Below are positions 31,635-60,907 of a stretch of 64,000 bases of DNA, piece after piece. A model generated the notes under the pieces. The model did not search any database. It was not told the DNA's origin and saw only the letters and a list, made by a program, of their open reading frames with translations. A program made the position numbers and the translations under genes. Position 1 is the first letter of the stretch; each line of letters opens with the position of its first letter. The stretch is from Streptomyces sp. Ag109_O5-10 (GTDB taxonomy: Bacteria; Actinomycetota; Actinomycetes; Streptomycetales; Streptomycetaceae). Where the stretch lies: assembly GCF_900105755.1 (NCBI RefSeq), contig NZ_FNTQ01000001.1:6758001-6822000 (forward strand), in the 5' to 3' direction.

Positions 31635-34550
31635 ATGGCAGCCTCGTTCGGTTACGGCGGCAGCGGCGTAGCAGCGGTCCCGTTCCGGGTGCTCGGGCCG
31701 CTCGAGGTGAGCGGCGAGCGGGCGGCCGTGTCCGTGGCATCGGGGCGTCAGGAAATAGTCCTCGGAGCTCTGGTGCTCGAGCTGAACCGGATGGTGGAGA
31801 CCACCTATCTGGTGGACGCCATCTGGGCTCACCATCCGCCGAAGACCGCACGCGCCCAGGTGCAGATCTGCATCTCCCGGCTCCGCAGGGCGCTTTTGGA
31901 CGGGGGAGTCGACGCCACCATCGAGACCCGCGCCCGGGGCTACATCCTGAAGGCTCCGGAGGGCGCGACCGACGTCGGCAACTTCCGGCGCCTGGTCGCA
32001 GAGGCACACGCTCTGGCCCGTGACGGCCTGACGATGCCTGCGGTGGAGGCGCTTCGCTCGGCGACCGCCCTGTGGCGGGGGCGGTGCCTGGCCGGTGTAC
32101 CCAGCGAAGTCCTGGCCGGCACGGCAGCGCAGTGGGACGAGAGGCGCCTGGAGGCGGTGGAGACCTGCATGCGGCTGCAGCTGGAGCTGGGCCGTCACGA
32201 GCACCTGGTCGGTGAGCTGATGCAGCTCGTCGCGGGCCATCCGCTGCGTGAGCGGCTGCGCGGGTACCTCATGGTGGCGTTGTATCGTTCGGGCCGGCAG
32301 GCGGAGGCACTCGACGCCTACCACCAGGGCCGCGCGTTGCTCACCGAGGAACTCGGCCTGGACCCGGGCAGGGAACTGCAAGACCTCGCGCAAGCGATCC
32401 TCACCGACGACCCTGTCCTGGCACTGGCCGAACAACCCGAACCTCGTGCCGTCGTGGCGACGCAGGCCGCCCAGCCGGCGCAGGAGTCCGGTGCCGATCC
32501 CAACCCCGTCACCACCCCCCGGCAGCTGCCCGCCGACGTCTACGACTTCGTAGCCGACGACAAGATCGTCTCGGCGATCTGCGACGCCGTCACCGAAGGA
32601 CAGTGCAAAGGGCCGCTGAGCGTGGCCTTGGTACTCGGCGGGGCCGGTGTCGGCAAGAGCACGCTGGCCACGCACGTGGCGCACCGTCTGGCGGCCGAGT
32701 ACTTCCCGGACGGCCAGCTCTACTGTGATCTCGGAGGGCTGGGCGGCCGGCCGGTGGACCCGGCTCAGGCGCTGGGGCGATTCCTGCGGGCACTGGGCAT
32801 ACCCGGCGAGACCATCCCCGATTCACTCGACGAGCGCGCGGAGATGTATCGCAGCCTGCTGGCCGGTCGCCGGATCCTGGTGTTGCTGGACGACGCGGTG
32901 AGCGACTCGCAGGTGATGCCCCTGTTGCCCGGAACCGGCAGCAGCGGCGTGCTGGTCACCAGCCGCAGCCTGCACACGGCGTTGCCGGGTGCACACCGGT
33001 TCGACCTGGAGCCGCTGAGCACGGAGCAGGCCCTCCGACTGCTCGGAAGGATCGTCGGGGAGCGCCGGGTCGAGGGTGAGGCGGAGGCGGCGCGGGACCT
33101 CGTACGCCTGGTGGGCGGGCTGCCGCTCGCGCTGCGCATCGTCGGCGCGCGTCTGGCCGCGCGCCCGCACTGGTCACTGACCTTCATGCGGAACCGGCTC
33201 CAGAACGAGCACCGCGGGTTGGACGAGCTGGCACACGGAGAGCTGTCGATCCGGGCAAGTTTCTCCCTCAGCTACGAGGGCCTGACGGCGGCCGAACGTC
33301 GCCTTCTGTGCCTGCTCGGCCTGGCCGAGGGAACGGTGATTCCGAGCTGGCCGGGTGCCGCCCTCGCCGACGACCGCACGCCGTGCACCAACGACCTCTT
33401 GGAACGGCTCGTCGACACGCGGCTGCTCGACATCACGGCCATGGACCAGGACGGGGAGACCCGGTATGGGATGTCGCCCCTGGCGCGGACGTTCACCCGC
33501 GAACGGCTGGCCGCGGAGATTCCCGAGGCGGAACGTGTCGAAGCGGTGCGGCGCATGGTCGGTGGCTGGTTGGCACTCGCCGAGCGGGCGCACAAGGAGG
33601 TCTACGGCGGTCGGTACATGTTCGTGTCCGGCCGGGCCGAGCGCTGGCATCCGCCGGAGAACGTCGTGCTGCGGTGCCTCCGCGACCCGCTCGGGTGGCT
33701 GGAGAGCGAGCAGGAAAACCTTGTGGGCGCGGTGGAGTTGGCGGCCCGGTTCGGGCTGGACGAGCTGTGCTGGGAGTTGGCCACCAGTCTGGTGACGCTG
33801 TTCGAAGCCCGTGGCTGTCCCGACCTCTGGGAGCGCACCCATCGGGTGGCGCTGACCGCGGTGCAAGAGGCCGGCAACGAACGGGGCCGGGCGGCTGTTC
33901 TCGGCTCCTTGGGGACCCTGTACCTGCATCGGGGCGACTACAAGGCGGCGGGCCCTTACCTCAGCGCCGCCCTGGGGATGTTCGAGCGGGTCGGTGAGGT
34001 TCGTGGCCAGGCGCTGTCCTTGCGCGGCCTGGCGCGCATCGAGCGGCACCACGGTGACGACGACCGGGCCATGACCCTTTACGAGAGCGCCGAGCGGAAC
34101 TTCGGGCGGGTGGAGGACGTCATCGGTCGCGCGTATGTCCTTGGCGAGATGGCGCGCATCACGATGCGTCGAGCGGATTTCGCGCAGACCCGTACATATA
34201 TCGACGAAGCCCTCGGCATCTGCCGGTCGATCTGCTTCGACCGGGGCCAGGCCCTGTTGCTGCGGCGGCTGGGCCAGATGCTGATGTACCAGCAGCAGCA
34301 CGAGGCGGCGGAACGGATCCTGCTGGAAGTTCTCGCCATGGTCAGGGCGAGCGGCGATCTGGTCGTGGAGGGGTGTGTGCTGCACGACCTCGGCCGGGTC
34401 AATGCCGATCTGCGTCGCCCGGAACACGCCATCGAGTACTACTCGCAATCGGCCAGGATCCGGGAGCGGACCCTGGACCACGGCAAAGCCGCTGCTACAC
34501 GGGCCGACATCGTTGCCATCCTGGACAGGCCGGTGCCGTCGGTCGGCTGA
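31635..34550 (+). CDS. SARP-family activator with NB-ARC and TPR domains (AfsR-like)
   Basis: The protein has 971 residues. Domain order is winged helix plus bacterial transcriptional activator domain (about 10-260: FRVLGPLEVSGERAAVSVAS, AQVQICISRLRRALLDG, EELGLDPGRELQDL), an NTPase with Walker A GGAGVGKST (about 335) and VLLDDAVSD, then C-terminal TPR repeats (about 720-960). Such large SARPs are cluster-situated activators that bind 11-bp direct repeats near the -35 of biosynthetic promoters. ATG at 31635 follows GAAAGGG by five bases. Two matching operators occur at 45780 and 51501. Confidence 0.93.
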   Translation: MAASFGYGGSGVAAVPFRVLGPLEVSGERAAVSVASGRQEIVLGALVLELNRMVETTYLVDAIWAHHPPKTARAQVQICISRLRRALLDGGVDATIETRARGYILKAPEGATDVGNFRRLVAEAHALARDGLTMPAVEALRSATALWRGRCLAGVPSEVLAGTAAQWDERRLEAVETCMRLQLELGRHEHLVGELMQLVAGHPLRERLRGYLMVALYRSGRQAEALDAYHQGRALLTEELGLDPGRELQDLAQAILTDDPVLALAEQPEPRAVVATQAAQPAQESGADPNPVTTPRQLPADVYDFVADDKIVSAICDAVTEGQCKGPLSVALVLGGAGVGKSTLATHVAHRLAAEYFPDGQLYCDLGGLGGRPVDPAQALGRFLRALGIPGETIPDSLDERAEMYRSLLAGRRILVLLDDAVSDSQVMPLLPGTGSSGVLVTSRSLHTALPGAHRFDLEPLSTEQALRLLGRIVGERRVEGEAEAARDLVRLVGGLPLALRIVGARLAARPHWSLTFMRNRLQNEHRGLDELAHGELSIRASFSLSYEGLTAAERRLLCLLGLAEGTVIPSWPGAALADDRTPCTNDLLERLVDTRLLDITAMDQDGETRYGMSPLARTFTRERLAAEIPEAERVEAVRRMVGGWLALAERAHKEVYGGRYMFVSGRAERWHPPENVVLRCLRDPLGWLESEQENLVGAVELAARFGLDELCWELATSLVTLFEARGCPDLWERTHRVALTAVQEAGNERGRAAVLGSLGTLYLHRGDYKAAGPYLSAALGMFERVGEVRGQALSLRGLARIERHHGDDDRAMTLYESAERNFGRVEDVIGRAYVLGEMARITMRRADFAQTRTYIDEALGICRSICFDRGQALLLRRLGQMLMYQQQHEAAERILLEVLAMVRASGDLVVEGCVLHDLGRVNADLRRPEHAIEYYSQSARIRERTLDHGKAAATRADIVAILDRPVPSVG

Positions 34551-35192: not shown

Positions 35193-35258
35193 ATGACCGT
35201 AGTGACCGGGGACGCGGTGACGCCCGCCCTGATGGCTCCCTACCGACGACATTGTTGA
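35193..35258 (+). CDS. 21-residue peptide ORF (leader or precursor candidate)
   Basis: ATG at 35193 is preceded by AAGGAG with seven bases spacing, as good a ribosome binding site as any in the window. The product is 21 residues and ends APYRRHC, with a C-terminal Cys. The stop is followed immediately by a hairpin (35259-35290). It lies 105 bases before the methyltransferase gene on the same strand. It could be an attenuation leader for the operon, a ribosomal peptide substrate for the cluster's ATP-grasp ligases, or chance. The last five codons use non-preferred third bases, unlike neighbouring genes. Confidence 0.45.
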   Translation: MTVVTGDAVTPALMAPYRRHC

Positions 35259-35290
35259 CGCTGCCGGTTCGGCCAGGAACCGCCGCAGCG
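35259..35290 (+). terminator. Hairpin directly after the 21-codon ORF
   Basis: CGCTGCCGGTTC (35259-35270) pairs with GAACCG (35277-35282) and GCAGCG (35285-35290), a 12-bp stem with a two-base bulge and six-base loop. It begins at the base after the small ORF's TGA. It could be a terminator or attenuator ahead of the methyltransferase operon. Confidence 0.5.
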
Positions 35291-35363
35291 CCATCACAGC
35301 GTGTGGCCTGTGACCCTTCAAGCGGTTTTCCCTGCCGGATCGACCCAACCGAGTCAGGTGATC

Positions 35364-40971: not shown

Positions 40972-42441
40972 ATGGAAACACCATCGGTGCCAGGAGTCGG
41001 CCGGATCGCCGCTTGGCCCTCGGAGCGGGAAACGCCGGTGACACTGCTCCGCGAACCGGCCGTCGCCGCCGGTGAGCCGCGCGAGCAGGACATTCCGCTC
41101 GGATTCCGCCAGGACCGGGCCGACGACGGCGGGACCGGCGCCGCGCCCTTCGGCCGGCGGCTGCGCGACCTGCGACTGCGGAGCGGACTGTCCCAGAAGC
41201 AGCTGGCGCGGTCCAGCACGCTCAGCGTTCGAGCGATACGTGATCTGGAGAACGGGAGGGTACGGCAGCCCAGGGCGGACTCCCTGCGCCTGCTCGCCGA
41301 GGCTCTTGGGCTCAGCGCCCCGCAGCTGAACCGGCTGACGAACGGCCACTCGCCAGGCTGTCCGGCGTCAGCCGCCGAGCCGGCCGTGAGCGGCCCGTTC
41401 ATCGGCCGGGAGCAGGAGCTGGCGGCGTTGACGACGATGCTCGGCGCCGATCACCACCGCCTGATCACGATCACCGGGATCGAGGGCGTCGGCAAGACCC
41501 GGCTCGCACGGGAGGTGACGCACGCACTGGAAGCGGCCGAGCACGCGACGGTCCTCTGGCTGCCCCTCGACGACGACCGGCTCCGGAGCGGAAGGGCACC
41601 GGTGGGGGCCCCGGACCAGCCCACGTGGTGGCGTGAGGTCGTGCACCGCGGGCCCGACAGCCGGCGGCGCCTCGCCGAGACGATCGGGGATGCGGACAGC
41701 ATCCTCGTCCTCGACGGTGCCCGGCCGGAGGACGAGCTGACGGACCTCACAGCCCATCTCCTGGCCGTCTGCCCCCGGCTGCGCATCCTCGTCACGACGA
41801 GAAACCCCGGCGGCATGCCCCTCGACACCCTCTTCCCGCTCGCGCCGCTCCCGGTGCCCTCGCCGGACATCGAGCCGGAGGACCTGGACGCGGTCGCGTC
41901 GGTGGCCCTGCTGCTCGCGCAGACGAAGCGCATCCGGCCGGCCTTCCGTCCCGACCCGCACGTCCTCGCGGACGTCGCCCGGATCTGCCACGCGCTCGAC
42001 GGCCTTCCCGCCGCTCTCGAATCCGTCGCCCACTGGAGCCTGATCTACTCCCTGCGGCAGCTCGCCCGGCAACTTGCCGTCGAGCCGCTCACCGTGGCAC
42101 GGCGGCCCCTGGGCGGCCCCCAGCGGCCGGACGCCTACGCGTCGGTCCACCACACCGTCGCCACGCTGAGCAGCCGCCAACGCGACCTGCTGTCGATCAT
42201 GTCCCAGAAGCCGTCCCGCGAGTCCGACGGCTACTGGTCGGTGGCGGAGGTGGCGGACCAGATGGGCCTGCCGGCCGCGGAGTGCGCCGACGACGTCTAC
42301 CACCTCGTCATCCTCGGCATCCTGCGCCGCGTCGACCGTCACGACGTGGCGATGTTCAAGGTGCTCAACATCGTCGGCATCGTCGGGCAGCACGCGACCG
42401 CAGGGCGGAACGGCATCGCGGGACAGCACACCGCCGCATGA
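40972..42441 (+). CDS. XRE helix-turn-helix regulator with NB-ARC-type ATPase domain
   Basis: The protein has 489 residues. An HTH of the XRE type (FGRRLRDLRLRSGLSQKQLA, then LSVRAIRDLENGRVRQP, about residues 60-115) is followed by a STAND-like ATPase with Walker A GIEGVGKTRLA (about 165-175) and DSILVLDGA. The C-terminal 150 residues hold a winged-helix-like segment (RQRDLLSIMS, YWSVAEVADQMGL). No TPR tail is present. It is probably a second cluster-situated regulator. Confidence 0.85.
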   Translation: METPSVPGVGRIAAWPSERETPVTLLREPAVAAGEPREQDIPLGFRQDRADDGGTGAAPFGRRLRDLRLRSGLSQKQLARSSTLSVRAIRDLENGRVRQPRADSLRLLAEALGLSAPQLNRLTNGHSPGCPASAAEPAVSGPFIGREQELAALTTMLGADHHRLITITGIEGVGKTRLAREVTHALEAAEHATVLWLPLDDDRLRSGRAPVGAPDQPTWWREVVHRGPDSRRRLAETIGDADSILVLDGARPEDELTDLTAHLLAVCPRLRILVTTRNPGGMPLDTLFPLAPLPVPSPDIEPEDLDAVASVALLLAQTKRIRPAFRPDPHVLADVARICHALDGLPAALESVAHWSLIYSLRQLARQLAVEPLTVARRPLGGPQRPDAYASVHHTVATLSSRQRDLLSIMSQKPSRESDGYWSVAEVADQMGLPAAECADDVYHLVILGILRRVDRHDVAMFKVLNIVGIVGQHATAGRNGIAGQHTAA

Positions 42442-43407: not shown

Positions 43408-44670
43408 TCAGGTCAGGACGGCGGGGTCGGACGTGATCTCCAACCTGACCGTCTCCCGCGCGACGGCCAAGGTGCGGAGCACGGTCGCTCGGTCCGGACC
43501 GTGCACCGAGGCGCTGACCGGAATGCACATGTTGTGGTTGGTGGTCGGCACATGGTCACCGGGCTCGAACTCCACGAGCACATCGGCGACGCCGGGCAGC
43601 GCGCGCAGCTCGTCCAGCCCGTGCATGGCCACCAGGGTGCCGGGCGGGCCGTCGTTGCGAATGACGACGGAGCCGAGCACGGCCCGGAACCCGTGGTCCC
43701 CGTCGATCATCTTCGGACGGCGGCCGAGGAAGCACTCCACGGCATCGTGGAACGGTCGCAGATCGGAGTGTCTCGTCCACATCGGTACCGCGGGGCCGCC
43801 CGAGAACCGGGCCGCGAGTTCGATCAGGTGGACGTCGTCCCCGTCGTCACTGCATTTGACCTCGATGTGGCCGGGTCCGTAATGGATGCCGAACGCGTCG
43901 AGCACGCGCTTGCAAAACCGCTCCACCCGTTCGTAGTCGGGATGCGAACCGTCGATCTGGACGATGTCCCAGAGGGGAAAGTCGTAGTCGCGGTCGTCGG
44001 GCCGTCGGTATTCCCAGACGTCGATCAGCCGGTGTTCACCGTCGGCGCTGCAGAAATTCACCGCGTACTCGCGCCCGCGTATGTATTGCTCCACCAGCCA
44101 TTCGGTGACCGGTCGGTCGTGCCGGTCAACCGCCAGATCCTTGGTCGCCGCGTCCAGATCCGCCGCGTCACCGATGACCGTGACGCCGTAGGAGCCCGAG
44201 CCCATCGTCTGTTTCACGATGACGGGAAAGCCGATGTCCCGGGCGGCCTCCGCCACCGCGTCGAGGGAGTCGACCAGCCGGAACTCCGGAACGCGGACCC
44301 CTGTCTGTACGGCCCTGGTCCGCATCGCCGCTTTGTTGCGCCGGGCCCAGCCCAGAGCGGGGTCGTTCCCTGGCAGGCCGAGCCGCGCCGCGATCTCGTC
44401 GGCCAGGTGGAGGGTCGACCCCCGGGACGGGACGACAGCCCGCAGGTCGAACCCGGCCGCACGGACCTGCCGGACGGCGTCGTCCACCCCGTCGGCCTGG
44501 AGCGACATCTCGCCGGCGGGGTCGGCCGGCAGGTCCGCGGCCGTGGACGACGGGCTCGTGGACAGCGAGACCACGTCGAAACCCAGCTCGCGGACGGCGG
44601 CCTTGTACGCGTGTCCGTTCCGGCTGTCCGCGGGGTCCACCAGCAGGACCACCGGGTTGTTCGATTCCAC
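43408..44670 (-). CDS. ATP-grasp ligase (carboxylate-amine ligase type), paralogue of the one at 52675
   Basis: The protein has 420 residues. The ATP-grasp core has the ATP-binding Lys and Gly-rich loop in FPVIVKQTMGSGSYGVTV, EWLVEQYIRGREYAVNF, and metal-binding Glu residues in HIEVKC and HLIELAARFSGGP. Preceding residues include a RLGLPGNDP motif shared with the ligase at 52675. Such enzymes activate a carboxylate as acyl phosphate and join it to an amine. GTG start with AGAGGAG upstream. Last gene of the minus-strand operon. Confidence 0.88.
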   Translation of the reverse strand: MESNNPVVLLVDPADSRNGHAYKAAVRELGFDVVSLSTSPSSTAADLPADPAGEMSLQADGVDDAVRQVRAAGFDLRAVVPSRGSTLHLADEIAARLGLPGNDPALGWARRNKAAMRTRAVQTGVRVPEFRLVDSLDAVAEAARDIGFPVIVKQTMGSGSYGVTVIGDAADLDAATKDLAVDRHDRPVTEWLVEQYIRGREYAVNFCSADGEHRLIDVWEYRRPDDRDYDFPLWDIVQIDGSHPDYERVERFCKRVLDAFGIHYGPGHIEVKCSDDGDDVHLIELAARFSGGPAVPMWTRHSDLRPFHDAVECFLGRRPKMIDGDHGFRAVLGSVVIRNDGPPGTLVAMHGLDELRALPGVADVLVEFEPGDHVPTTNHNMCIPVSASVHGPDRATVLRTLAVARETVRLEITSDPAVLT

Positions 44671-44704
44671 CGAAGCTCCTCTCCGTAGCGACGACGGGTG
44701 ACGA

Positions 44705-45739
44705 CTAGCGCGCGGCCATGGCGTTGGCGGCCGCCAGCACCATGGCCTCCGCGGGGTGCACCCGGTCGATGTCGGCGACCGCGGCCATCAGCTCGAAGAC
44801 GTCGACGTTCGCGGTCTTCGCGCACCTGCTGATCAGCGGGAAGAAGCTGGAGTGCGTGCGCGTGACGCCGCCGACGAGCTGGTATGTGCGATCGTCGTGC
44901 AGTCGCTCCAACGGGCGGACGACGGACTCGCTCAACTCCGCGAGAGCCCGGAAGTCGTACGTGTCGCGACAGCCCTGGGCATGCAGGGCCGCCGCGAACG
45001 TCTCTGTCACGGTGTTGCCGGCCCCGCGGCCGATGCCGTCGAGCGTGGTGTCGACGAACCGTGCGCCGCTCGACGTCGCCGCGAGCGCGTTGGCGTTGGC
45101 CAGGCTCAGGTTGTCGTGCCCGTGGAAGCCGAGCGGAACGGTCACCGACTGGCCGACCTTCTCGAACAGCTCGGTGACGTCCGACGGCAGGTAACCACCC
45201 ACCGAGTCGACGAGGTACACGACATCGGCACCGTACTCCGTGCACTGACGGACCGCGTCCGTGACACCGTCGGCTTCGAGGACGTTCGTCTTCATGAGGT
45301 TGGCGAACGCCGTGATGCCGAGGTCCTTGGCGAGGGTGAGGAAGGCCTCGGCCGGCGCGACGGAAGAGATGTCCACGCCGACCCGGACGAACTGCATGCC
45401 GGCGGCCACGGCTTGCCTCAGGTGATCCAGCTCGGCGATTCCCGGGATGCAGAACATCCCCCAACTCGCGCTCGTCAGCGTCTCGGACGCGATCCCGAAG
45501 CACCGTGCGTCGGAGACCAGCATGGGATGAGCCGTGCGCTCGGCGGCGTTGAGGCCCAGTCCGTGACCCAGCTCGACGTACCGGACACCTGCTCCTTCAA
45601 GACCGCTCAGAACGCTCCTGATCGTGCTTTCGGTGAACTTGAAGTCCACGGCATAACTACCGTCACGGAGTGTGCAGTCCAGGATTTCGACTGCGGATGG
45701 CCGCCCGTCCTCGGCAACCATCGGCGATGTCTCTGACAT
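44705..45739 (-). CDS. HMGL-type aldolase, DmpG/MhpE-like (4-hydroxy-2-oxovalerate aldolase family)
   Basis: The protein has 344 residues. The TIM-barrel signature is ILDCTLRDGSYAVDF; metal-binding His pair is in PLGFHGHDNLSLANA; LDGIGRGAGNTVTE follows as in DmpG (compare LAGLGAGAGN). These enzymes make or break 4-hydroxy-2-oxo acids with pyruvate. The acetaldehyde dehydrogenase partner DmpF is absent. It probably builds or cleaves a carbon chain of a cluster-specific amino acid. It is the first gene after the operator at 45780. Confidence 0.85.
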   Translation of the reverse strand: MSETSPMVAEDGRPSAVEILDCTLRDGSYAVDFKFTESTIRSVLSGLEGAGVRYVELGHGLGLNAAERTAHPMLVSDARCFGIASETLTSASWGMFCIPGIAELDHLRQAVAAGMQFVRVGVDISSVAPAEAFLTLAKDLGITAFANLMKTNVLEADGVTDAVRQCTEYGADVVYLVDSVGGYLPSDVTELFEKVGQSVTVPLGFHGHDNLSLANANALAATSSGARFVDTTLDGIGRGAGNTVTETFAAALHAQGCRDTYDFRALAELSESVVRPLERLHDDRTYQLVGGVTRTHSSFFPLISRCAKTANVDVFELMAAVADIDRVHPAEAMVLAAANAMAAR

Positions 45740-45779
45740 TGAACACCTCAAGCAGAGAAGTATGGGGAAAACGGTGTTT

Positions 45780-45830
45780 CGACACTAGCCGAGAAGTGCC
45801 CGTCCGCCAGCGGCAGAAGCCCGGCAGAAA
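45780..45830 (-). promoter_or_regulatory. SARP-type operator and -10 region, site A
   Basis: On the minus strand CTTCTGCCG occurs twice in 11-bp register (plus strand CGGCAGAAG at 45811 and CGGCAGAAA at 45822). It is followed after 23 bases by TAGTGT as -10 within CTAGTGTCG. The same elements with identical spacing occur at site B. SARP activators are known to bind such 11-bp direct repeats. It drives the aldolase and ATP-grasp genes. Confidence 0.72.
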
Positions 45831-45909
45831 AGAGCGGATCGACGGGCGTAAATGCCCCCCGAAGCAACCCGGAATGACAGCGGAAAAGAAAGAGCTGGAC
45901 GTCGCGTTG

Positions 45910-46896
45910 TCAGCGCGCGCCCTCCGCTCGCAGATCGCGGACGAACGTGTCGAAGCGGGAGCGGAAGGAGCCGAAGCGTGCCTTGTTGAGATCCGGGTCA
46001 CGCGCTGCGGAGCCGTCGACCTCGATCTCGGAGAACCACCATCGCCCGTCGGCACGGAGGAAGTCGACGCAGAGGTAGGGCAGCCCGATGTCACGGGCCA
46101 CCGCCCGCGCCGGGGCGAGCAGCGCATCGGGGATGGCGTTCCACGCCGCCGAGCCGCCCTGGGCGGTGTTGCCCGCGAGCGCGTCGCCGCGCAGTTCGCG
46201 CGTCAGCACGCGGTGCGGCTCACCGTCGAGGCAGTACACGCGGTAGTCGACCACGTCGCGCCCCAGCCACGGCTGTATCAGGACCGTCAGCTCGGTGGCG
46301 GCCGCCCAGGTGAGCACGGCGTCCAGTTCCCCGACGGTGGAGGCGACGAACACGCCGTTCCCGCCTCCCCAGCTGGCGGGTTTGACCACCACCGGAAGAC
46401 CGATGTCGCTCGCGCGCATCGCGGCGGTGCACCAGTCGAGGTGGTCCCGGTCGTATCCGCGGGTGCACAGGCGCACCGACGGCAGCCGCTGCACCACACT
46501 GCCGAACCGCTGTAGCGCGGTGAGCTGCTTCTCGTTGTTGACCAGGCTGAGCCCGACGGGGACCGTGGTGAAGAAGCCGGCCGCTGACAGGGCGGCGTAG
46601 GTCGTCAAGTGCCGCCAGTAGTCGAACCGGTCGACCGGCCACGTGACCAGCTTCGTGTGGAAGACGGTCGCGTCCGGTGCGACGAGCGCGCCGCGCACGC
46701 GGACCGAGGCACAGTCCTTCGTGGTGCCCACGACGACGTCGTCGACGCTGATCCGGGTCAGCCGCATCCCGACCGCGCGCGCGGCGTCGTCGTAGCCCGT
46801 GTTGATCGCGGCGTCATAGGGATTCGGTGACTTGCTCTCGCGCTCCGAGCGGATCCAGAACATGGTGATCGCGTCGCTGTCGTGCGCTGTCGTCAT
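45910..46896 (-). CDS. ATP-grasp ligase (RimK/glutathione synthetase-like)
   Basis: The protein has 328 residues. It has LVNNEKQLTALQRFG, LPSVRLCTRGYDRD, the ATP-binding Lys and glycine loop in LPVVVKPASWGGGNGVFVA, TVLIQPWLGRDVVDYRVYCL, and metal residues in WWFSEIEVDGSAARDPDLNK. It is likely an amide or ester-bond-forming ligase. Its ATG overlaps the stop of the upstream paralogue at 46893-47819 (ATGA), so both are made together. Only this member of the pair keeps the catalytic residues. Confidence 0.85.
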   Translation of the reverse strand: MTTAHDSDAITMFWIRSERESKSPNPYDAAINTGYDDAARAVGMRLTRISVDDVVVGTTKDCASVRVRGALVAPDATVFHTKLVTWPVDRFDYWRHLTTYAALSAAGFFTTVPVGLSLVNNEKQLTALQRFGSVVQRLPSVRLCTRGYDRDHLDWCTAAMRASDIGLPVVVKPASWGGGNGVFVASTVGELDAVLTWAAATELTVLIQPWLGRDVVDYRVYCLDGEPHRVLTRELRGDALAGNTAQGGSAAWNAIPDALLAPARAVARDIGLPYLCVDFLRADGRWWFSEIEVDGSAARDPDLNKARFGSFRSRFDTFVRDLRAEGAR

Positions 46897-47819
46897 GCTC
46901 CGACTCCGGCTGCCGAGGGCGAAACCGCGTCGCGCGCGGCACGGAACCGACGGAACGCCTCGCGGTAGGCGACGAGTTGGACTTCCAGGGCGTCGGCGTC
47001 GGCGTCGGGCGCGAAACCCGTGCAGTCCACGTGCGACAGCCAGAACCGATCGGCGTCCTGGACGAAGCCGATCCGGACGTAGGCGAGTCCGAGCGCGGTC
47101 GCGACCGTCCGCGCGGGGCCGGACAGCCGCTCGGCGAGCGCCCCTTCCAGACCGGCCGGCTCGCCGTCGACGCACACCACGGTGTGTTCGACGACGTGTT
47201 CGCCGAGCCATGGCTGCACGAGGACGGTCACCTCGGACGCACCCGCCAACTGCAGGAGGGTGGTCAGCCTGCGTTCGTTCTCCGCGACGAACGGCCGGTC
47301 GCCGGGCCGGCGGACCGCCGGGCGCACCGCCACCGGGAACTCCAGCCCCCAGTCGGAGAGGCGCAGCCGGTCGCGATGGACCTCGATCTCGCGGGTACAC
47401 AGCCGCACCGACGGCAGGGTGCGCACCTCGCCGAGATCGAAACTCAGGAGCGGCACGATCGTGTCTGTCCAGGTGATCGAGTGAACGGCGGGCACGGTGA
47501 CCATGAACCCGGCGGCTTCGAGGATCCCGATGGTGCTCAACAGCCGCCAGGCGTCCGCCGCCTGCGTGGACCCGCCGAGCGAGCCGGTGTGGAAGAAGGT
47601 GTCGCGCGGGTCCACGCGGTCGCCCCGCACCCGCACGACGGCCGTCTGCCCCGTCTGGGTCAGGACCAGGTCGTCGACCGTGGCCGTGCGCAGGGCGACA
47701 CCGAGGCTCGCGGCCGCCGCGGTCAGGTCCGCCACGCGCGCGTGGTCGGCCGTCGCGACCGAGATGTGGTCGCGTTCCGAGCGCAGCCAGACGAGGCCGG
47801 GGGGAGAGGGAGTGGGCAT
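46893..47819 (-). CDS. Degenerate ATP-grasp paralogue (probable pseudoenzyme)
   Basis: The protein has 308 residues and aligns along its length with the ligase at 45910-46896: FHTGSLGGSTQAADAWRLLS, LPSVRLCTREIEVHRDR and TVLVQPWLGEHVVEHTVVCV. The ATP-binding Lys is replaced by Arg (VAVRPAVRRPGDRP), the glycine loop WGGGNG is gone, and the metal-site Glu region reads LSHVDCTGF. It probably lost ligase activity and acts as a partner or carrier-binding subunit of its coupled neighbour. Role inferred. Confidence 0.8.
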   Translation of the reverse strand: MPTPSPPGLVWLRSERDHISVATADHARVADLTAAAASLGVALRTATVDDLVLTQTGQTAVVRVRGDRVDPRDTFFHTGSLGGSTQAADAWRLLSTIGILEAAGFMVTVPAVHSITWTDTIVPLLSFDLGEVRTLPSVRLCTREIEVHRDRLRLSDWGLEFPVAVRPAVRRPGDRPFVAENERRLTTLLQLAGASEVTVLVQPWLGEHVVEHTVVCVDGEPAGLEGALAERLSGPARTVATALGLAYVRIGFVQDADRFWLSHVDCTGFAPDADADALEVQLVAYREAFRRFRAARDAVSPSAAGVGA

Positions 47820-47909
47820 GGATCTCGCTCCTGGATCGGGGGCGCGCGGCGAAGGGGCTGACGGGCCGGCGCCCGAAATCGTTCGTGCGGGCGGAGGTGC
47901 CGAAAGGAC

Positions 47910-48563
47910 TCAGTCGTCCAGTACGGCCAGCGCCCGCGCGGGCGCGCCGTCTCCACCGCTGACGTTGAGCACACCGACGAAGAGCGTGCTCCATCGGTCC
48001 GCGATCTCGCGCAGTACGAGGTTCTCCACGATCAGCATGCCGGCGCCCAGCAGCGTGCGGTGCACGTCGTAGGGGAAGTTCGCCGGACGCATGCTCATCG
48101 GCAGGTCCGGGCTGATGGTGTCCATGCCGATGAGGCGAAGCCCCGTGTCCACGGCCCAGCGGGCCGCGTCGACCGCGAGGTAGGGGTGGCTGTCCACATA
48201 GGCCGGCTCGCCGTAGCGGTCGTCCCAGCCGGTGCGGATCAGCAGCGCGTCACCGGGTTCGAGGTCGACGGCGGACTTCAGGTCGGCCGCCGTGATCGGC
48301 ACGGGATCGTCCCGCAGCACCTCGATGCAGTACGCCCGGCCGACCAGCGTCGACACCGGCACCTGGTCGAGCGTGGCGCCGTCCTCGACGAAGTGCGACG
48401 GGGCGTCCACGTGGGTGCCGATGTGGGTCGGTATGTTCAGGCGCATGACCCGCATCCGGTCGTCCGCCCAGGTGCTGGTGGGCGTGAATTCGGGTGCCTG
48501 GATCGTGCGCGCGTGCGGCATACCCGTTTCCAGCGGGCGGGAGAGATCAACTGTACGTGGCAT
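47910..48563 (-). CDS. Cyclase/kynurenine formamidase-family metal hydrolase (PF04199)
   Basis: The protein has 217 residues. The family motif H-x-G-T-H-x-D-x-P-x-H is seen in IPTHIGTHVDAPSHF. The latter part has GDALLIRTGWDDRYG, RLIGMDTISPDLP and the late AGMLIVENLVLREI. PF04199 members hydrolyse amides or close rings using divalent metals. In the cluster it could open or close a lactam or remove a formyl group. It lies between the TauD-like oxygenase and the ATP-grasp pair on one operon. Confidence 0.85.
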   Translation of the reverse strand: MPRTVDLSRPLETGMPHARTIQAPEFTPTSTWADDRMRVMRLNIPTHIGTHVDAPSHFVEDGATLDQVPVSTLVGRAYCIEVLRDDPVPITAADLKSAVDLEPGDALLIRTGWDDRYGEPAYVDSHPYLAVDAARWAVDTGLRLIGMDTISPDLPMSMRPANFPYDVHRTLLGAGMLIVENLVLREIADRWSTLFVGVLNVSGGDGAPARALAVLDD

Positions 48564-48588
48564 GAGGTGCCCACTCCTTCGCTTCGGC

Positions 48589-49476
48589 TTAGTTGGCTCG
48601 TCCGTCTTCCTGCACCCCGTAGATTCGGCGCAGCCTGCGGTGGGAGGTGGTCTCCTGGAACGGCCGGCGGCCGTGCAGCATGCGCCGGTTGTCCCACAGC
48701 AGGCCGACGCCGCGTTCGAGGAGCACGGCTTCCGCGTTCACCGCCGCGGCAGCGGAGACCTGGTCGAATGCGTCCATGGCCGCCAGAAGCTCCGGCGGAA
48801 CCGGCGTACCTTCGGCGGCAAAGGCCTGCTCGATGTACATGCGGACGTAACGCAGTTCGTAGCCGTTGTCCGTGCGCGTCAGCACCGGCTGCCGTTTGAT
48901 CTTGACTCCGGCCATCTGGTCCTTCACGTCGAACGGTACGGGTCGGCTCAGTTCGGCGACGTGGGCCGGGTCGATCCGGTCGAGCTCCCGAACCAGGTTC
49001 TCGACGTCCATCAGCAGCGTCTCCCCGCCCGTCGCCGCGGACAGGCCGAACAGGAAGGCGACGTCGGGCAGTTGCGGCAGCAGGGTGCCGTCGGTGTGAT
49101 AGTTGCCCGTCTTGTTCGAGTTCGAGTAGTGGCTGGTGGCCGCGGCCGCGGCCTTGACCTCGACGGGATAGATGAGTTCGCCGGAGCTGTACTGCGGAAC
49201 CGGGCGGAAAAGCAGCGTGAAGAAATTCCAGTAGACGGTGCTGATGTCCTGGTCGCTGAGTCCCTCCGGGGCGACCCGCACGACGGCGCCCCCCGCGTCC
49301 TTGCGGATGGCCGAGACTATGTCGCCACGCAGCGCCTGGATCTCCGTGTCGGCCGTCGGGAAGGTCTCCGTCGGCCACTTGTCCAGAGGCGTTTCAGCGT
49401 CTATTTCTCGCGTCAGCAGTGCCGAGACCGCCGAGCTGGATATCTTGAACTCCGGGATCGTGAATTCCGTTGCCAT
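48589..49476 (-). CDS. TauD/TfdA-family Fe(II)/2-oxoglutarate oxygenase
   Basis: The protein has about 295 residues. The iron site H-x-D is in KTGNYHTDGTLLP and the distal His in RRMLHGRRPF with the 2-oxoglutarate Arg following in SHRRLRRIYG. Related enzymes (clavaminate synthase-like) hydroxylate free or tethered amino acids. Start ATG at 49476 (MATEFTIPEF) is preferred; an ATG five codons upstream at 49491 is possible. It follows the glutamate mutase gene and may act on its product. Confidence 0.85.
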   Translation of the reverse strand: MATEFTIPEFKISSSAVSALLTREIDAETPLDKWPTETFPTADTEIQALRGDIVSAIRKDAGGAVVRVAPEGLSDQDISTVYWNFFTLLFRPVPQYSSGELIYPVEVKAAAAATSHYSNSNKTGNYHTDGTLLPQLPDVAFLFGLSAATGGETLLMDVENLVRELDRIDPAHVAELSRPVPFDVKDQMAGVKIKRQPVLTRTDNGYELRYVRMYIEQAFAAEGTPVPPELLAAMDAFDQVSAAAAVNAEAVLLERGVGLLWDNRRMLHGRRPFQETTSHRRLRRIYGVQEDGRAN

Positions 49477-49536
49477 CGTGACTCTGCCCATTTCTGTGAG
49501 GAGATCGGTGCGGCTTGGTCGGCGATCAGGGGTTTT

Positions 49537-51456
49537 TCACGCGTCGAGCGGCCACTTACGGTAATGGCCCGATGGAATGCGCAGCACATCTCGCTCGACG
49601 AGTTGCCATTCGCTTCGCACGGGCGGCTGCTCCGTCCTGCGACGCTCGCTCATCCGGCTCCGATGGAACTCGATCACATCGGAGGAGAACCTCAGCCGGC
49701 CGGTGTTCAGGTAGCGCACCGCGCCCTGGACGTCCCGGGCCGTCAGGACCTCGCCACGGTTGTAGACGCTGGGGGAGAAGGGCACGTCCAGATAGCCGAG
49801 CGCGAATGCCTTCACCACGCCGTCCGTGAGGCTGCCGTCGCCGGCCAGGAGGACGCTCTCGAGGATCTGATCAACCTCGGCCCGCAGGACGGTGGCCTCC
49901 TCGCGGACCGTCCGCTCGTCCACCTCGACGCCGTTCGCCTCCAACGCGCCCAGCCGGCTCAGCTGCAGGCCCTCCTGGTTGTCGGACACCGACGGAATGG
50001 AGGTCGCCTCGACCGGTGTCTTGGTGATCAGCCGCGAGGCACCGGACAGCCGGCCGGTGGCCGCGGAGGCCACGATCAACTGCGCCGCCCGCGCCCGGTC
50101 CTGCGGAAACGCCGCCATGTGCTGGTGGAACACGACGTTGACCTGAACTCCTGGATATCCCAGGTTCGCCAGATACTTCTGGCCCAGTTCGCGCAGGACC
50201 CTGACCGCCGCGATGTCCTGGGACCGGTTTCCTTGTTCGGCGTATCCGAGTGAAACCGATCCCACGCCCTGGCCGGCCGCCAGCATGGCCTCGATCACAT
50301 TGACGACGATCGCCAGACTCGGCGGGATCAGGACCGCGGTGAGAGTGCCGAAGAATTCACGGTCGATGACCACTCCGAACTTCTCGCGGTAGAGACCGAC
50401 CAGCCGATCGACGTACTGCCATCTCCTGAGGGACTGGGCCGGTGAGTAGTCCTTGAAATAGGGGATGTTGTACGTGATCGCGCCCCCCTCGAAACCGGTG
50501 ACGCCACCGGCGCACGAGATCTCGGCGAGGAGCCGTGGGTCGCGAGTGCTGTGTCGGGTCTGCAGCGGTGTCCGCACCTCCGATATCAGCTCGCGGAGAA
50601 CGTCGACCCCGTGATTCACCATGGGGAATCCGTTGAGCGTGGAGGCACCGCTTTCCCGACTCTCCGCGATCGCGTCGTGGGCCTTCCGGTAGTCGTTGTT
50701 CCTGGTGAGCGAATCGATCTGGTAGGACAGCACGTCCGCGCCGGCCCGGCGCAGGGCCACGAAGGCCGTGCGCTGCTCGGCGGCAAGCGCCACGCCCGAG
50801 CGCGGCTGCACCAGGAACGGTCGCGCCCCCCGGGGGCCCGGTGCGTGCGCGTGCGCGAAGGACGGCTGCCGCAGCAGGAAAGCCGCGTTGTCCGCCAGGT
50901 CCCGCGCACGAGCGCCGGTCGGCCAGGACTCCAGCACCGCGGGCCGCTGTTTGAGCAGGTCCTCTTCGGTGAGCCGCTGGTCGGGCGGTGCGGTGCCCGG
51001 CTGGGCGGGCCGGAAGGCGGCGACCGGTCTGGCGCGTACCGCCGGAGGCCTGGTCAGGAGATCCTCGGCCAGCACCGAGAGAATCGTCGGAATGTCGACG
51101 TACGTCGGAAAGACCCGCCGGAAGCCGAGCCGGCGCGCTTCACCGCGTATCCGCTCGGAATTGCCCACGTCCAGGTTCCCACCGGCATACCAGAGCGCGT
51201 CGATGTCGGGATACCTGAGCAGCAGGTCCGGAAACTGCCTCAGATAATGGCGCAGATGCCCGTCCATGCACGAAATCATCACGACATCCACGTCGCCCGC
51301 ATGCCGGAAAAAGTCGTCGAGGTTGTTCTGCGTGCCCATGAAATGGACCGCGTGGCCGGCCTCCGTGATGGCGTGTTTCAGCAGTGTCAGACCCACTGAA
51401 TGGGCATCGGCGCCGATCCCGCCGAGTGCGATCGACCGTGGCGTCGGCAATGGCAT
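49537..51456 (-). CDS. Fused adenosylcobalamin-dependent glutamate mutase (GlmS-GlmE type)
   Basis: The protein has 639 residues. Residues 1-140 form a cobalamin-binding domain with D17-x-H19-x-x-G22 in GADAHSVG, and YAGGNLDVGN and later GFRRVFPTYVDI as in the sigma subunit. Residues about 165-639 match the epsilon catalytic subunit (STLNGFPMVNHGVDVLREL, PQDRARAAQLIVASA, STLNGFP motif). The enzyme interconverts L-glutamate and threo-3-methylaspartate. Elsewhere the two parts are usually separate proteins. It heads the minus-strand operon under operator site B. Confidence 0.9.
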   Translation of the reverse strand: MPLPTPRSIALGGIGADAHSVGLTLLKHAITEAGHAVHFMGTQNNLDDFFRHAGDVDVVMISCMDGHLRHYLRQFPDLLLRYPDIDALWYAGGNLDVGNSERIRGEARRLGFRRVFPTYVDIPTILSVLAEDLLTRPPAVRARPVAAFRPAQPGTAPPDQRLTEEDLLKQRPAVLESWPTGARARDLADNAAFLLRQPSFAHAHAPGPRGARPFLVQPRSGVALAAEQRTAFVALRRAGADVLSYQIDSLTRNNDYRKAHDAIAESRESGASTLNGFPMVNHGVDVLRELISEVRTPLQTRHSTRDPRLLAEISCAGGVTGFEGGAITYNIPYFKDYSPAQSLRRWQYVDRLVGLYREKFGVVIDREFFGTLTAVLIPPSLAIVVNVIEAMLAAGQGVGSVSLGYAEQGNRSQDIAAVRVLRELGQKYLANLGYPGVQVNVVFHQHMAAFPQDRARAAQLIVASAATGRLSGASRLITKTPVEATSIPSVSDNQEGLQLSRLGALEANGVEVDERTVREEATVLRAEVDQILESVLLAGDGSLTDGVVKAFALGYLDVPFSPSVYNRGEVLTARDVQGAVRYLNTGRLRFSSDVIEFHRSRMSERRRTEQPPVRSEWQLVERDVLRIPSGHYRKWPLDA

Positions 51457-51500
51457 TGGCTACCTCGATCGAGCGGAGGAGTGCGGGGCAAGTGTTGTGT

Positions 51501-51562
51501 CGACACTAGCGAAGAAGCGCACCCGTATCAGCGGCAGAAGTGCGGCAGAAACCCGGCAGAAG
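51501..51562 (-). promoter_or_regulatory. SARP-type operator and -10 region, site B
   Basis: On the minus strand CTTCTGCCG or TTCTGCCG occurs three times in exact 11-bp register (plus strand starts at 51532, 51543, 51554). It is followed after 23 bases by TAGTGT in GCTAGTGTCG. The distance from CGACACTAGC (51501) to the first repeat is 31 bp, the same as in site A. It lies in the divergent gap and is oriented toward the glutamate mutase operon. Confidence 0.78.
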
Positions 51563-51694
51563 AGTGCGCGTTTAGTGGCTCAACTGCCTCTCCGAACAGC
51601 AATGGACGCCTTGCGGCACGTGACAGTGACGTGTACGAATTGAACCGTAGGAATCTGCGGGAGCAACCAGGTTATGGTGAGGAAGGGTTACCCG

Positions 51695-52609
51695 ATGGCC
51701 GGCATACTCAGCGATAGTCAGGTCGATTTCTACCGTGAGAACGGGTTCTGTGTCGTCGACGGAATTTTCGACACCGAACTGGTCGAGAAGGCGCGATCCG
51801 TGGTCGACGGCCTGCTCTCCTCCGCCGACCTCGCCCGGGTGGCCGAGGCGGAGCCGGAGGACAGCTCCAAGGCTCGCCGTATCTGGGCCCCGACCTCGCG
51901 GGACGAGCTCTTCTCCGACATCGCGGAGGACCCCCGGCTCCTCGACGCGGTCGAGCAACTGATCGGTTCCGACATCGTGCTGCAGTACTCGAAGCTCAAC
52001 GTGAAGCCGCCGCGCGTGGGCAGCGTCGTCGAGTGGCACCAGGACTTCGCGTTCTACCCGCACACGAACACCGATCTGGTCGCCACGCTGATCTATCTCG
52101 ACGACGCGACCAGGGCGAACGCCTGCCTGCGGGTGGTCGCCGGGTCGCACCGGCACGGCCTTCTCCCGCACGAGGCGGAGGGTTATTTCGTGGGCAAGGT
52201 CTCGTCGCCGGCGGAGGTGGGCCTGGACGAGTCGGCGATCGTCGACTGCGAGGGGCCCGCCGGATCGGTGGTGTTCATCCACCCCCTCCTCCTGCACTCC
52301 TCGGAGAAGAACCTCTCGGACATGTACCGCCGCGTCTTCATCCCCTCCTACCGCGCGGCCGACGCCCTTCCCGTCTACTACGGCCCGCACGCCGCGCACA
52401 ACGAGCCGACGGCGAAGCTCGTGCGCGGCAGTGCCTCCAGGACCGTGCGCAGCGAGGCCGGCCAGTGGCGACTCCCGATCGCGGCCGCGGAGTTCAACTC
52501 GTTGTACCAGGTTCAGGAAGGCTCTCACGTGAGCGACGGAACGAAGCTGTCCACCGGCTACTTCTCCCACGAGTACGACACGAAGGACGCGGTGCGCACC
52601 TCGATGTGA
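51695..52609 (+). CDS. PhyH-family Fe(II)/2-oxoglutarate oxygenase
   Basis: The protein has 304 residues. Iron ligands are in EWHQDFAFYPH (H-x-D) and in IHPLLLHSSEKN, with the 2-oxoglutarate Arg in DMYRRVFIPSYR. It starts MAGILSDSQVDFYRENGFCV, a normal family start. ATG at 51695 is chosen because GGAAGGG lies eight bases upstream, seven codons inside a longer frame. Relatives hydroxylate or halogenate amino acids and ectoine; no halide-type site (Ala or Gly for Asp) is seen, so hydroxylation is likely. Confidence 0.87.
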   Translation: MAGILSDSQVDFYRENGFCVVDGIFDTELVEKARSVVDGLLSSADLARVAEAEPEDSSKARRIWAPTSRDELFSDIAEDPRLLDAVEQLIGSDIVLQYSKLNVKPPRVGSVVEWHQDFAFYPHTNTDLVATLIYLDDATRANACLRVVAGSHRHGLLPHEAEGYFVGKVSSPAEVGLDESAIVDCEGPAGSVVFIHPLLLHSSEKNLSDMYRRVFIPSYRAADALPVYYGPHAAHNEPTAKLVRGSASRTVRSEAGQWRLPIAAAEFNSLYQVQEGSHVSDGTKLSTGYFSHEYDTKDAVRTSM

Positions 52610-52674
52610 GCCGCCTCCGGCATACGGCGCAGCACAGTTCCCCCCGCATCGGACGAGAAAGCACAAGGAGCATC

Positions 52675-53928
52675 ATGACCAGCTCGCTCGGCGCAACGCC
52701 CGCTGTCGTGCTCATGGACCCCTGCGGGCCGAGCATGGGTTTCAAACCCCAGGTGGCCGAGCGCGGAATGGCCGTGATCTCCGTGTACACGATGCCCCGC
52801 GAGCACCTCGGGACCCGGTACCCCGACCACACCGTCGGTGACACGGTCAGCCTGTACGCCGCGGAACTCGACGACATCCGGGCCCAACTCGCCGCACTGG
52901 GTGCCGACATTCGCGCGGTGGTGCCCGCCAACGACGTGGCCGTGGACAAGGCGGACACGCTGGCCGAGGAGTTCGGCCTGCCCGGCAACGGCGCGCGGCT
53001 GGCCCTCGCCCGCCGGGACAAGTCCGCGATGCGGGAGACCGCCGCGCGGTCGGGAGTTCGCATTCCCCGTTACGTGATGGTCGAGGACGCGGCCGGCATC
53101 GCCCGAGCCGCGCGCGACGTGGGCTTCCCCGCCATCGCCAAGCACACGGGCGGGGCCGGGTCGCACGGTATCCGGCTGCTGAGCGGACCGGGGGACGTCG
53201 AGGACCTTTCGGCCCTGCACCGGACCGACCACTTCGGACGGCCGGTCGAGGCCTGGCTCGTCGAGCAGTACGTGCGCGGGCGGGAGTTGGGCGTGAACTT
53301 CTTCTCGCACGACGGCACGCACCACGTCCTGGACATCTGGGAGTACCGGCAACCCGACGACCGGGACTACTCGTTCCCGTACTGGGAGTGGGCGCAGATC
53401 TCCCAGGACGACCCCGACTGGCAGACCGCGGTCGACTACGTACGGCAGGTGCTCGACACGTTCGGCGTGCGCCTGGGCCCCAGCCACACCGAGATCAAGA
53501 TGTCGGCCGGCGAGCCCTACCTCATCGAACTGGGCGCCCGGCTGCCCGCCTACCCCATGATCGACGCGTGGCTCGCGCACAGCGATCTCGACCCGCACCG
53601 CCAGACCCTGGCCGGCCGGCTCGGCGAGGTGCCGAAGATCGCGACCGAGCCGGTGAAGTTCGACGGCTACTGCGGCGCCAACGCCATTCGCAACGACGGA
53701 CCGGCCGGCCGGCTGGTGGAGATCCGCGGGCTGGACGAGGTGGAGCGACTGCCCGGTGTGGACAAGCTGGTGGTGCGCTACCGGCCGGGCGACATGGTGC
53801 CGACCACCACCAGTATCGCGACCATTCCGCTCAGGGTGAGTGTCTCCGCGCCGGACCGCCGGACGCTGATCCAGCGCATGGCCGCGGTCCGCGACACCGT
53901 GGAACCAGTGATCGAACCGGTCTGCTGA
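52675..53928 (+). CDS. ATP-grasp ligase, paralogue of the one at 43408
   Basis: The protein has 417 residues. It shares with the 43408-44670 product the segments GLPGN, the ATP-binding loop in FPAIAKHTGGAGSHGIRLL, AWLVEQYVRGRELGVNFF, IWEYRQPDDRDYSFPYW and the metal Glu region EPYLIELGARLPAYP. It probably forms a peptide-type bond in the product. Strong AAGGAG before the ATG. Followed by an exporter and another ATP-grasp gene in one operon. Confidence 0.88.
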   Translation: MTSSLGATPAVVLMDPCGPSMGFKPQVAERGMAVISVYTMPREHLGTRYPDHTVGDTVSLYAAELDDIRAQLAALGADIRAVVPANDVAVDKADTLAEEFGLPGNGARLALARRDKSAMRETAARSGVRIPRYVMVEDAAGIARAARDVGFPAIAKHTGGAGSHGIRLLSGPGDVEDLSALHRTDHFGRPVEAWLVEQYVRGRELGVNFFSHDGTHHVLDIWEYRQPDDRDYSFPYWEWAQISQDDPDWQTAVDYVRQVLDTFGVRLGPSHTEIKMSAGEPYLIELGARLPAYPMIDAWLAHSDLDPHRQTLAGRLGEVPKIATEPVKFDGYCGANAIRNDGPAGRLVEIRGLDEVERLPGVDKLVVRYRPGDMVPTTTSIATIPLRVSVSAPDRRTLIQRMAAVRDTVEPVIEPVC

Positions 53929-53933
53929 TCCCG

Positions 53934-56389: not shown

Positions 56390-56738
56390 TCTGTCGCGAC
56401 ACCGACGCGCCGCCGCCGTCTCGGGCACGGCGCAGCCGGCGGTGAGGCGGAGAGCGTCCGCTGCGGCACCGAACGCGGCAGGTGTGCCCATCGTCGTGCC
56501 AGGATTGCCGCCGCGGACGCGGTCCGCTCCCGGCCGGATTCGACGAGCGGGGCGGGCGACCCCGGTGGCCGCCACGTTCAAGTCGTCCACCGGTCGCTTC
56601 TCCCACGGGGCCGGCGCCGAGGCGAAGCCGAACCTGGCCGGGTGACCGGCCACGAGTCGCCGATCCGGCAGGGTGAGGTGATCGCGTCCCCCTCCGCCCC
56701 GGACGGCCGCCCACCCCGTCACCTCGAAAGGAACCGCC
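56390..56738. other. 349-base gap, probable right boundary of the core cluster
   Basis: No convincing gene on either strand and no long hairpin. AAAGGA before the next GTG is the only clear signal. Confidence 0.5.
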
Positions 56739-60129: not shown

Positions 60130-60228
60130 CCAGCTCCTCCTACTCCCGGCCGTTCCCGTGCCGGGGTGGTAGTTCGTTCGTGCGGCCAGTGCGGTGGCAC
60201 ACGTTGTCCTCGACCCTAGGGACGGGTG

Positions 60229-60267
60229 ATTTCTCGGGCGTGACCCATTTGTTTCGCTGAAGTTAAC
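60229..60267 (-). promoter_or_regulatory. GlnR boxes upstream of glnA
   Basis: On the minus strand TTAAC-n6-GAAAC-n6-GTCAC-n6-GAAAT occurs at perfect 11-base steps about 100-140 bases upstream of the glnA start. This is the known GlnR consensus (gTnAC-n6-GaAAc) in tandem. Confidence 0.85.
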
Positions 60268-60340
60268 CGGCCTCGGTTCCACCGTAGCCCGTGGCACCCC
60301 GCCGACCCAGGGGCCCGGCCGGGCCCAGTACCGTGGACGG

Positions 60341-60808: not shown

Positions 60809-60822
60809 GGTAGCGGTTCGGC

Positions 60823-60907
60823 TGCGGGCCGGTGGGGAGCTGGTCGCGCAGTTCCTCCCCCAGCCTTCGGCCGGGGGTGCCCCCAGCGCCCCTGACGGGG
60901 CGCTGCG
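60823..60907. repeat. Dispersed extragenic repeat copy
   Basis: GGCTGCGGGCCGGTGGGG, then CTGGTCGCGCAGTTCCTCCC, CCAGCCTTCGGCCGGGGGTG and CCCCAGCGCCCCTGACGGGG match the repeat at 19508-19600 closely and share the CTGCGGGCCGGTGGGG part with the 124-bp array. It fills the gap after the RDD gene. Confidence 0.8.

Follow-up and report, generated by a model that had tools for sequence, protein, structure and literature searches.

Canonical binding sites of Streptomyces antibiotic regulatory proteins (SARPs) place the 3′ repeat 8 bp from the -10 element, according to the portions of PMC10936776 and PMC4393881 available. Further sites are documented in excerpts of PMC3367932 and PMC5930380: the PimR site of pimM holds three heptamers and the SanG and PolR sites two, with 4-bp spacers and the consensus CGGCAAG. 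We analyzed a comparable element in a 64,000-nucleotide stretch of Streptomyces sp. Ag109_O5-10 DNA (contig NZ_FNTQ01000001.1, positions 6,758,001 to 6,822,000; the whole stretch is called the window). The promoters of two of its minus-strand operons, one beginning with an HMGL-like gene and the other with a fused glutamate mutase gene, carry arrays of the 8-mer TTCTGCCG, which are kept in the same gene cluster of three other genomes (G305, G449 and G088). Coordinates of the features are given in Table 1.

Layout of the two promoters

On the plus strand of the window CGGCAGAA starts at 45811 and 45822 and again at 51532, 51543 and 51554, with a step of exactly 11 bp. On the minus (coding) strand each site therefore reads as an array of TTCTGCCG followed by 23 bases and TAGTGT; the HMGL-like gene has two copies upstream and the mutase gene has three. 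The array-to-CGACACTAGC distance is 31 bp at both sites, and CGACACTAGC occurs in the window only at 45780 and 51501, even with one mismatch allowed. The original prediction, made from the letters of the window, had described both the repeats and this spacing, and its reading was correct. One additional, lone copy of CGGCAGAA is present at 30498 on the minus strand. Shuffled windows hold a mean of 2.29 single copies, so that single 8-mers are meaningless and only the 11-bp arrays are meaningful. A motif search of the whole genome, which had also been proposed, found the combined pattern of array and -10 exactly twice in 9.46 Mb, against an expectation of about 3e-7 from base composition; the reversed control was found 0 times.

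The same prediction spoke of SARP-operator geometry, which the distance to the -10 does not support. The repeats are indeed heptameric direct repeats 11 bp, or one helical turn, apart. The gap to the putative -10 is 23 and not the canonical 8: the 3′ repeat does not lie 8 bp from the -10, the 5′ repeat does not overlap the -35, and inspection of the sequence revealed no TAnnnT 8 bp from the array at either window promoter. The putative -35 elements (CTGATA, CTGGCG) are poor and directly follow the array. The -10 elements lie 43 and 47 bases from the ATG codons at 45739 (HMGL) and 51456 (mutase), respectively. When the start site is assumed to be 7 bases after the -10, the 8-mers would occupy -43/-36, -54/-47 and -65/-58, and a pair of boxes would be centred at about -43.5. 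Class II activators are centred at -41.5, which is close to this value. Next to the -10, at 45788-45795 and 51509-51516, there is also a partly conserved TTCTnnGC, which resembles the 8-mer and is one base off the 11-bp phase.

Comparison with described systems shows both likenesses and differences. With the PimR, SanG and PolR sites the arrays share heptamers with 4-bp spacers; the window's CGGCAGA agrees with CGGCAAG in 5/7 positions and with the middle PimR copy, CGGCAGG, in 6/7. In the excerpts (PMC3367932, PMC5930380) the operator of PimR, a SARP-LAL, does not lie on top of the -35 either, which indicates that operators farther upstream than the canonical SARP position do exist. By the same excerpts, the window differs in that its heptamer reads TTCTGCC on the coding strand, opposite in orientation to pimM, and in that its array abuts the -35 while the PimR site lies about 55 nt farther upstream; moreover, a PimR-like SARP-LAL was not identified in the window's cluster. 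The AfsR/afsS promoter, known from a cryo-electron microscopy SARP initiation complex, resembles the two promoters in its 11-bp direct repeats, in TTC on the non-template strand and in its poor -35, as far as the published excerpts describe it, and the SARP adjacent to the window's cluster has the domain order of AfsR. However, the afs box is centred at -29.5 in the available part of PMC10936776, compared with about -43.5 for two boxes in the window if the start site is as assumed, and the letters of the window's repeat differ from the CGTT(T/C)ATCGNN given in an excerpt of PMC10972967. The third system, that of the LuxR-family protein MilO at milA, has three imperfect direct repeats before one biosynthetic promoter, the sole copy in its host according to the portion of PMC11784345 available. 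In that portion, however, the repeats are 11 bp long with 2-nt spacers (13-bp period) and lie 142 bp upstream of the start, and no LuxR-type gene is common to the four clusters. Sites of this kind are already known, whereas this array, its conserved use in the cluster and the copying of the promoter were not met in the literature searched.

Conservation, distribution and origin of the arrays

A scan for the array together with the -10 covered 698 genomes in total, 392 from the genus and, out of 393 from the family, 306 new ones; one -10 base was left free in the family scan. Three genomes matched, the window's own, G305 and G449, and in each case in this cluster only. G305 and G449 have two sites each, the site with TAATGT in G305 being matched only by the freer pattern. 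The fourth genome, G088, was located among 101 searched through the 489-residue HTH_3-AAA protein of the cluster (72% identical); its arrays are kept and its -10 elements altered. All four genomes contain the same cluster. It starts with the methyltransferase gene at 35364 and reaches at least as far as the third ATP-grasp ligase, near 56390; most of its proteins are 72-94% identical, and the lowest value is 66%.

All 20 8-mers in the four clusters are identical to TTCTGCCG, and every cluster has a two-copy array at the HMGL-like gene and a three-copy array at the mutase gene. In ungapped alignments of the four promoters, the array columns are invariant in 24/24 positions against 27/99 of the others (mutase) and in 16/16 against 14/107 (HMGL). 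The corresponding P values, 1e-11 and 3e-12, are inflated, as the motif was known beforehand and the flanks were aligned ungapped and not realigned. Between array and -10, where the alignment is sure, 12/23 and 9/23 columns are invariant, and a gap of 23 followed by TAGTGT or TAATGT is found in six of the eight promoters. Other upstream blocks are also conserved among the four genomes. Because the 20 8-mers are identical and the copy number at each promoter is fixed, comparison of the four sequences indicates that the arrays are a real operator under selection. The original prediction had argued for selection from the window alone, and the constancy of the 8-mers next to diverged spacers and flanks bears it out.

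The array is almost confined to this cluster. Searching 379 genomes of the genus without the -10 recovered G088, G305 and ten single matches elsewhere, as compared with six occurrences in five genomes for the reversed pattern. These ten genomes, with one TTCTGCCGNNNTTCTGCCG each, are near chance by this control and, by eye, have no TAnnnT at the right place. Outside the cluster, exact TTCTGCC-N4-TTCTGCC is found 0 times in G305, 0 times in G449 and once in G000 (inside an open reading frame), and the 8-mer form of the array was not found outside the cluster in G088. A mutase scan of named genomes gave five loci, the nearest in Actinosynnema pretiosum (64%) and Actinocrispum wychmicini (63%), in other gene contexts and with no array. 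Plasmid searches returned one irrelevant match to the cluster DNA and only distant mutases to the mutase query. A more distant cluster is present in G108, with HMGL, PhyH, FAA hydrolase and alpha/beta hydrolase proteins at 65-70% identity and an HTH_3-AAA protein at 38-43%. No SARP was found in the 20 kb of this cluster and no 11-bp TTCTGCC array; its HMGL gene is preceded by three irregular CTGCCG copies, a number reached by 1/2000 shuffles for a motif chosen post hoc.

Repeats with an 11-bp step in the diverged HTH_3-AAA loci look like chance, apart from those in G083 (L100, near 6357) and G004 (L102, near 6591). In these two, CGGGAAC direct repeats in 11-bp steps lie beside a SARP gene, in clusters that hold a SARP, an HTH_3-AAA gene and a mutase homologue. 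They are possibly sites of those SARPs; their orientation to the downstream gene is opposite to that of the window's array.

The original prediction further held that the rest of the two promoter regions differs. For the window alone this is nearly so: its HMGL and mutase promoters are 75% identical over 85 bp, but with the motifs masked no match remains at E 0.01, which explains that view. Alignment to the orthologous clusters leads to another result. The window's HMGL promoter matches the mutase promoter of G305 at 86% over 116 bp and that of G449 at 84% over 112 bp. With arrays and -10 elements masked, its similarity to the mutase promoter of G305 persists at 81% over 72 nt (E 2e-7), and the window's mutase promoter aligns with the HMGL promoter of G449 at 70% over 64 nt (E 3e-7). 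In addition, the mutase leader carries the beginning of the HMGL gene, as MSVTSPM in a 30-codon stub in G305 and as MSETSPM in a 33-codon stub in G449. In G088 the stub is present and has lost its ATG, and in the window it is deleted, so that the copied ribosome site leads straight to the mutase ATG. On these alignments the two promoters are diverged, paralogous copies of one promoter, and an independent convergence fails to account for them. The stub encodes HMGL rather than mutase sequence, so copying most likely proceeded from the HMGL gene to the mutase gene.

Candidate readers of the array

Of the regulators found, the HTH_3-AAA protein alone is shared by all four clusters; it combines a Cro/CI-type HTH with an AAA/NB-ARC-like NTPase (PF01381, PF13560 and PF13191, all above cut-offs). 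The proteins of G305, G449 and G088 are 77%, 75% and 72% identical to the window's. Its gene is thus present in 4/4 clusters, as against 1/4 for the adjacent SARP. Among the 101 genomes, proteins at least 72% identical were found only in the window's own genome and G088, both of which have the arrays, and the next is at 43%. The near confinement of exact heptamer pairs to the cluster also suits a dedicated regulator travelling with it. This co-occurrence makes the HTH_3-AAA protein the likeliest candidate reader, at a confidence that falls a little short of even. A wider claim, that a Cro/CI-type HTH-STAND ATPase reads a SARP/OmpR-like array and that a second operon was recruited by copying the cassette, initial codons included, within the cluster, we advance more tentatively.

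Several points weigh against the HTH_3-AAA protein. Direct heptamers spaced by one turn mark OmpR-type winged helices (SARPs, PhoB/PhoP) and not Cro/CI-type HTHs. Presence in four clusters would be no proof of binding by this protein. Both -10 elements of G088 deviate, with GAGTGT at 23 and TAGTCT at 24. The G108 homologue is 38-43% identical, yet that cluster has no 11-bp array and only its three irregular CTGCCG copies. Large SARPs stand beside diverged HTH_3-AAA genes in four of nine loci (G083, G092, G004 and G086), a neighbourhood that may mean that the two act together. Finally, an excerpt of PMC3163267 states that SinR, which is of the Cro/CI type and has a 7-bp site, shows a tenfold preference for inverted repeats.

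The second candidate, which we consider rather unlikely, is an unlinked SARP or other OmpR-type protein whose gene lies away from the cluster in each genome, such as a response regulator or an AfsR-like global SARP. Direct heptamers at 11 bp are typical of SARPs in the portions of PMC3367932, PMC5930380 and PMC4393881 available, and in such excerpts PimR, SanG and PolR read CGGCAAG, near the CGGCAGA found here. On the coding strand TTC is oriented as in the AfsR repeat (TTCAGC). Each of the four genomes has 8 to 21 BTAD places, and one group of large SARPs, linked at 57-77% identity, has a member in all four. However, the recognition helix of that common group (GALQALVGRLRRALG type) is unlike that of the adjacent SARP, and AfsR itself, at 55% identity or more, was found in three of the four genomes and not in G449. 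Two further points weigh against an unlinked protein: outside this cluster the exact array marks no clear target in these genomes, and its distance to the -10 is 23 instead of 8.

The SARP adjacent to the cluster, in the original prediction the obvious activator, is placed third. It has a full architecture of OmpR-type DNA-binding, BTAD, NB-ARC and TPR domains (PF00486, PF03704, PF00931, PF13424) and lies 0.8 kb from the conserved block; it does not score as an AfsR orthologue (541.7 bits against a cut-off of 1430 for NF053617), and another SARP domain of the source genome is 87% identical to AfsR. It is outside the conserved block, whose alignment starts near 35237 with G305 and near 35332 with G449. 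No SARP is encoded in the 60 kb fetched around each of the G305, G449 and G088 clusters. The four genomes contain 60 BTAD places; 55 were compared along with the window's own, 43 of them in these three genomes, and none has a DNA-binding/BTAD domain at least 55% identical to that of the adjacent SARP. Its best whole-protein matches are 37% in G305 and 41% in G449. The array is unaltered in all four genomes and the SARP is missing from three, which is why another protein probably reads it and the adjacent SARP is unlikely as sole activator. For it to be the activator, the other clusters would have to have lost their SARP or use another of like specificity, which appears doubtful. In its favour are the pairing of SARP and HTH_3-AAA genes in the four diverged loci, where one SARP (G086) is 53% identical to it, and SARPs with a similar recognition helix in G449 and G088. 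On the other hand, no SARP with this helix was seen in G305 by eye, the G086 locus with the closest SARP has no array, and the 23-bp spacing would be non-canonical for it.

That the arrays are a repressor site, only a DNA structure or a functionless likeness left by duplication is improbable: duplicates need no function to be alike and an operator abutting the -35 could equally suit a repressor, but the 8-mers are invariant (24/24 and 16/16 columns) where spacers and flanks diverged (27/99 and 14/107), and the poor -35 elements are those expected of an activated promoter.

A flanking LuxR-type regulator was rejected as common reader. Such genes occur in G305 (two, 97% alike, at the cluster ends) and in G088 (one 45% related, along with a large LuxR-type ATPase); none matching by position is present in the window or in the G449 stretch, and the five genes inspected next to the G449 cluster include none. 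The two LuxR/GerE genes of G305 (L016:5757-6668 and L017:8796-9608) are inverted relative to each other, and the part of that cluster corresponding to window 43411-56393 runs in the opposite direction to the window.

Plus-strand operon, proposed mechanism and neighbouring genes

No 8-mer array is present upstream of the plus-strand operon at 35364, as originally noted. Instead, a different upstream block is conserved in 4/4 clusters, consisting of GACATTGTTG.CG, then CGGT.CG, then ATCACAGCG, with changes between genomes; this supports the second mode of control that had been suggested. As this operon encodes the HTH_3-AAA protein, a two-step order is plausible.

We propose that the ancestral cassette would have comprised TTCTGCCG every 11 bp, a weak abutting -35, a TAGTGT -10, a leader, a ribosome site and the first HMGL codons. 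Its copying from the HMGL gene to a position before the mutase gene would have made the mutase operon part of the same regulon. The coding stub that was copied along would then have decayed (G305, G449, G088) or been deleted (window), with the array retained. A protein bound to the proximal 8-mer (-43 to -36), immediately before the -35, may act in a class II-like manner, touching sigma region 4. The plus-strand operon may be switched on first, and its HTH_3-AAA protein would then activate the two minus-strand operons. Flanking regulators that differ by genome, a SARP in the window and LuxR types in G305 and G088, may act upstream of the HTH_3-AAA step.

Table 1. Features of the two promoters and their surroundings (window coordinates)
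Feature	Position	Strand	Remarks
Operator array before glutamate mutase gene, 3x TTCTGCCG (51561-51554, 51550-51543, 51539-51532)	51532..51561	-	11-bp steps; three copies in 4/4 orthologous clusters
Operator array before HMGL-like gene, 2x TTCTGCCG	45811..45829	-	11-bp step; two copies in 4/4 clusters
TAGTGT, putative -10 of mutase promoter	51503..51508	-	23 bases from array; TAGTGT in 3/4 genomes, TAGTCT at 24 in G088
TAGTGT, putative -10 of HMGL promoter	45782..45787	-	TAGTGT, TAATGT, TAGTGT, GAGTGT in window, G305, G449, G088
TTCTTCGC, partly conserved element abutting mutase -10 upstream	51509..51516	-	Alignment of 8 promoters
HMGL-like / 4-hydroxy-2-oxovalerate aldolase-like gene, first of one target operon	44705..45739	-	PF00682, NF006049; start ATG 45739 conserved in four genomes
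Fused glutamate (methylaspartate) mutase S-E gene, first of other target operon	49537..51456	-	PF06368, PF02310; TIGR01503, PRK02261
489-residue HTH_3-AAA (STAND-type) regulator, proposed array reader	40972..42441	+	Inside plus-strand operon; only regulator found in all four clusters
AfsR-like large SARP, 971 residues from ATG at 31635	31635..34550	+	1014-codon open reading frame opens 31506; outside conserved block
Conserved upstream block of plus-strand operon	35248..35315 (ends approximate)	+	No array; four genomes
PhyH-type dioxygenase gene, divergent from mutase gene	51674..52609	+	Four clusters

The PhyH-type gene might share the mutase array. Its side of the divergent region (51562-51674) has conserved blocks of its own, e.g. 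AATTCGTACACG and CGCAGATTC (minus strand), and is likely a separate promoter. The cluster at 35364-58650 encodes FolE, QueD, QueE and QueC homologues (preQ0-type), an EctB-like aminotransferase, the fused glutamate mutase S-E, the aldolase-like HMGL protein, several Fe(II) dioxygenases and three ATP-grasp ligases besides a 694-residue ATP-grasp protein. No product was found for it in the literature searched, and we regard it as an uncharacterised, Streptomyces-type, antibiotic-like gene cluster. The interval between the cyclase gene and the HMGL promoter is a place of gene gain: in the window (45910-47994) it holds the 694-residue ATP-grasp gene, in G449 (26428-27706 of its stretch) a second EctB-like aminotransferase gene on the other strand, and in G305 and G088 no such gene. 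Beyond the cluster, at 58720-63960, genes for a glutamine synthetase, an aromatic-ring hydroxylase and a SchA/CurD-type polyketide protein may begin a type II polyketide (spore-pigment-like) cluster.

The two promoters provide a natural case of regulon growth within a biosynthetic cluster, in which a working promoter was copied together with its operator and the copies can be followed through their decay across four genomes. They also caution against taking for granted that a SARP-like operator is read by the nearest SARP, and they point to a little-studied class of cluster regulators, the HTH_3-AAA proteins, as a candidate for switching on a cluster of the preQ0-type/glutamate mutase/ATP-grasp kind.

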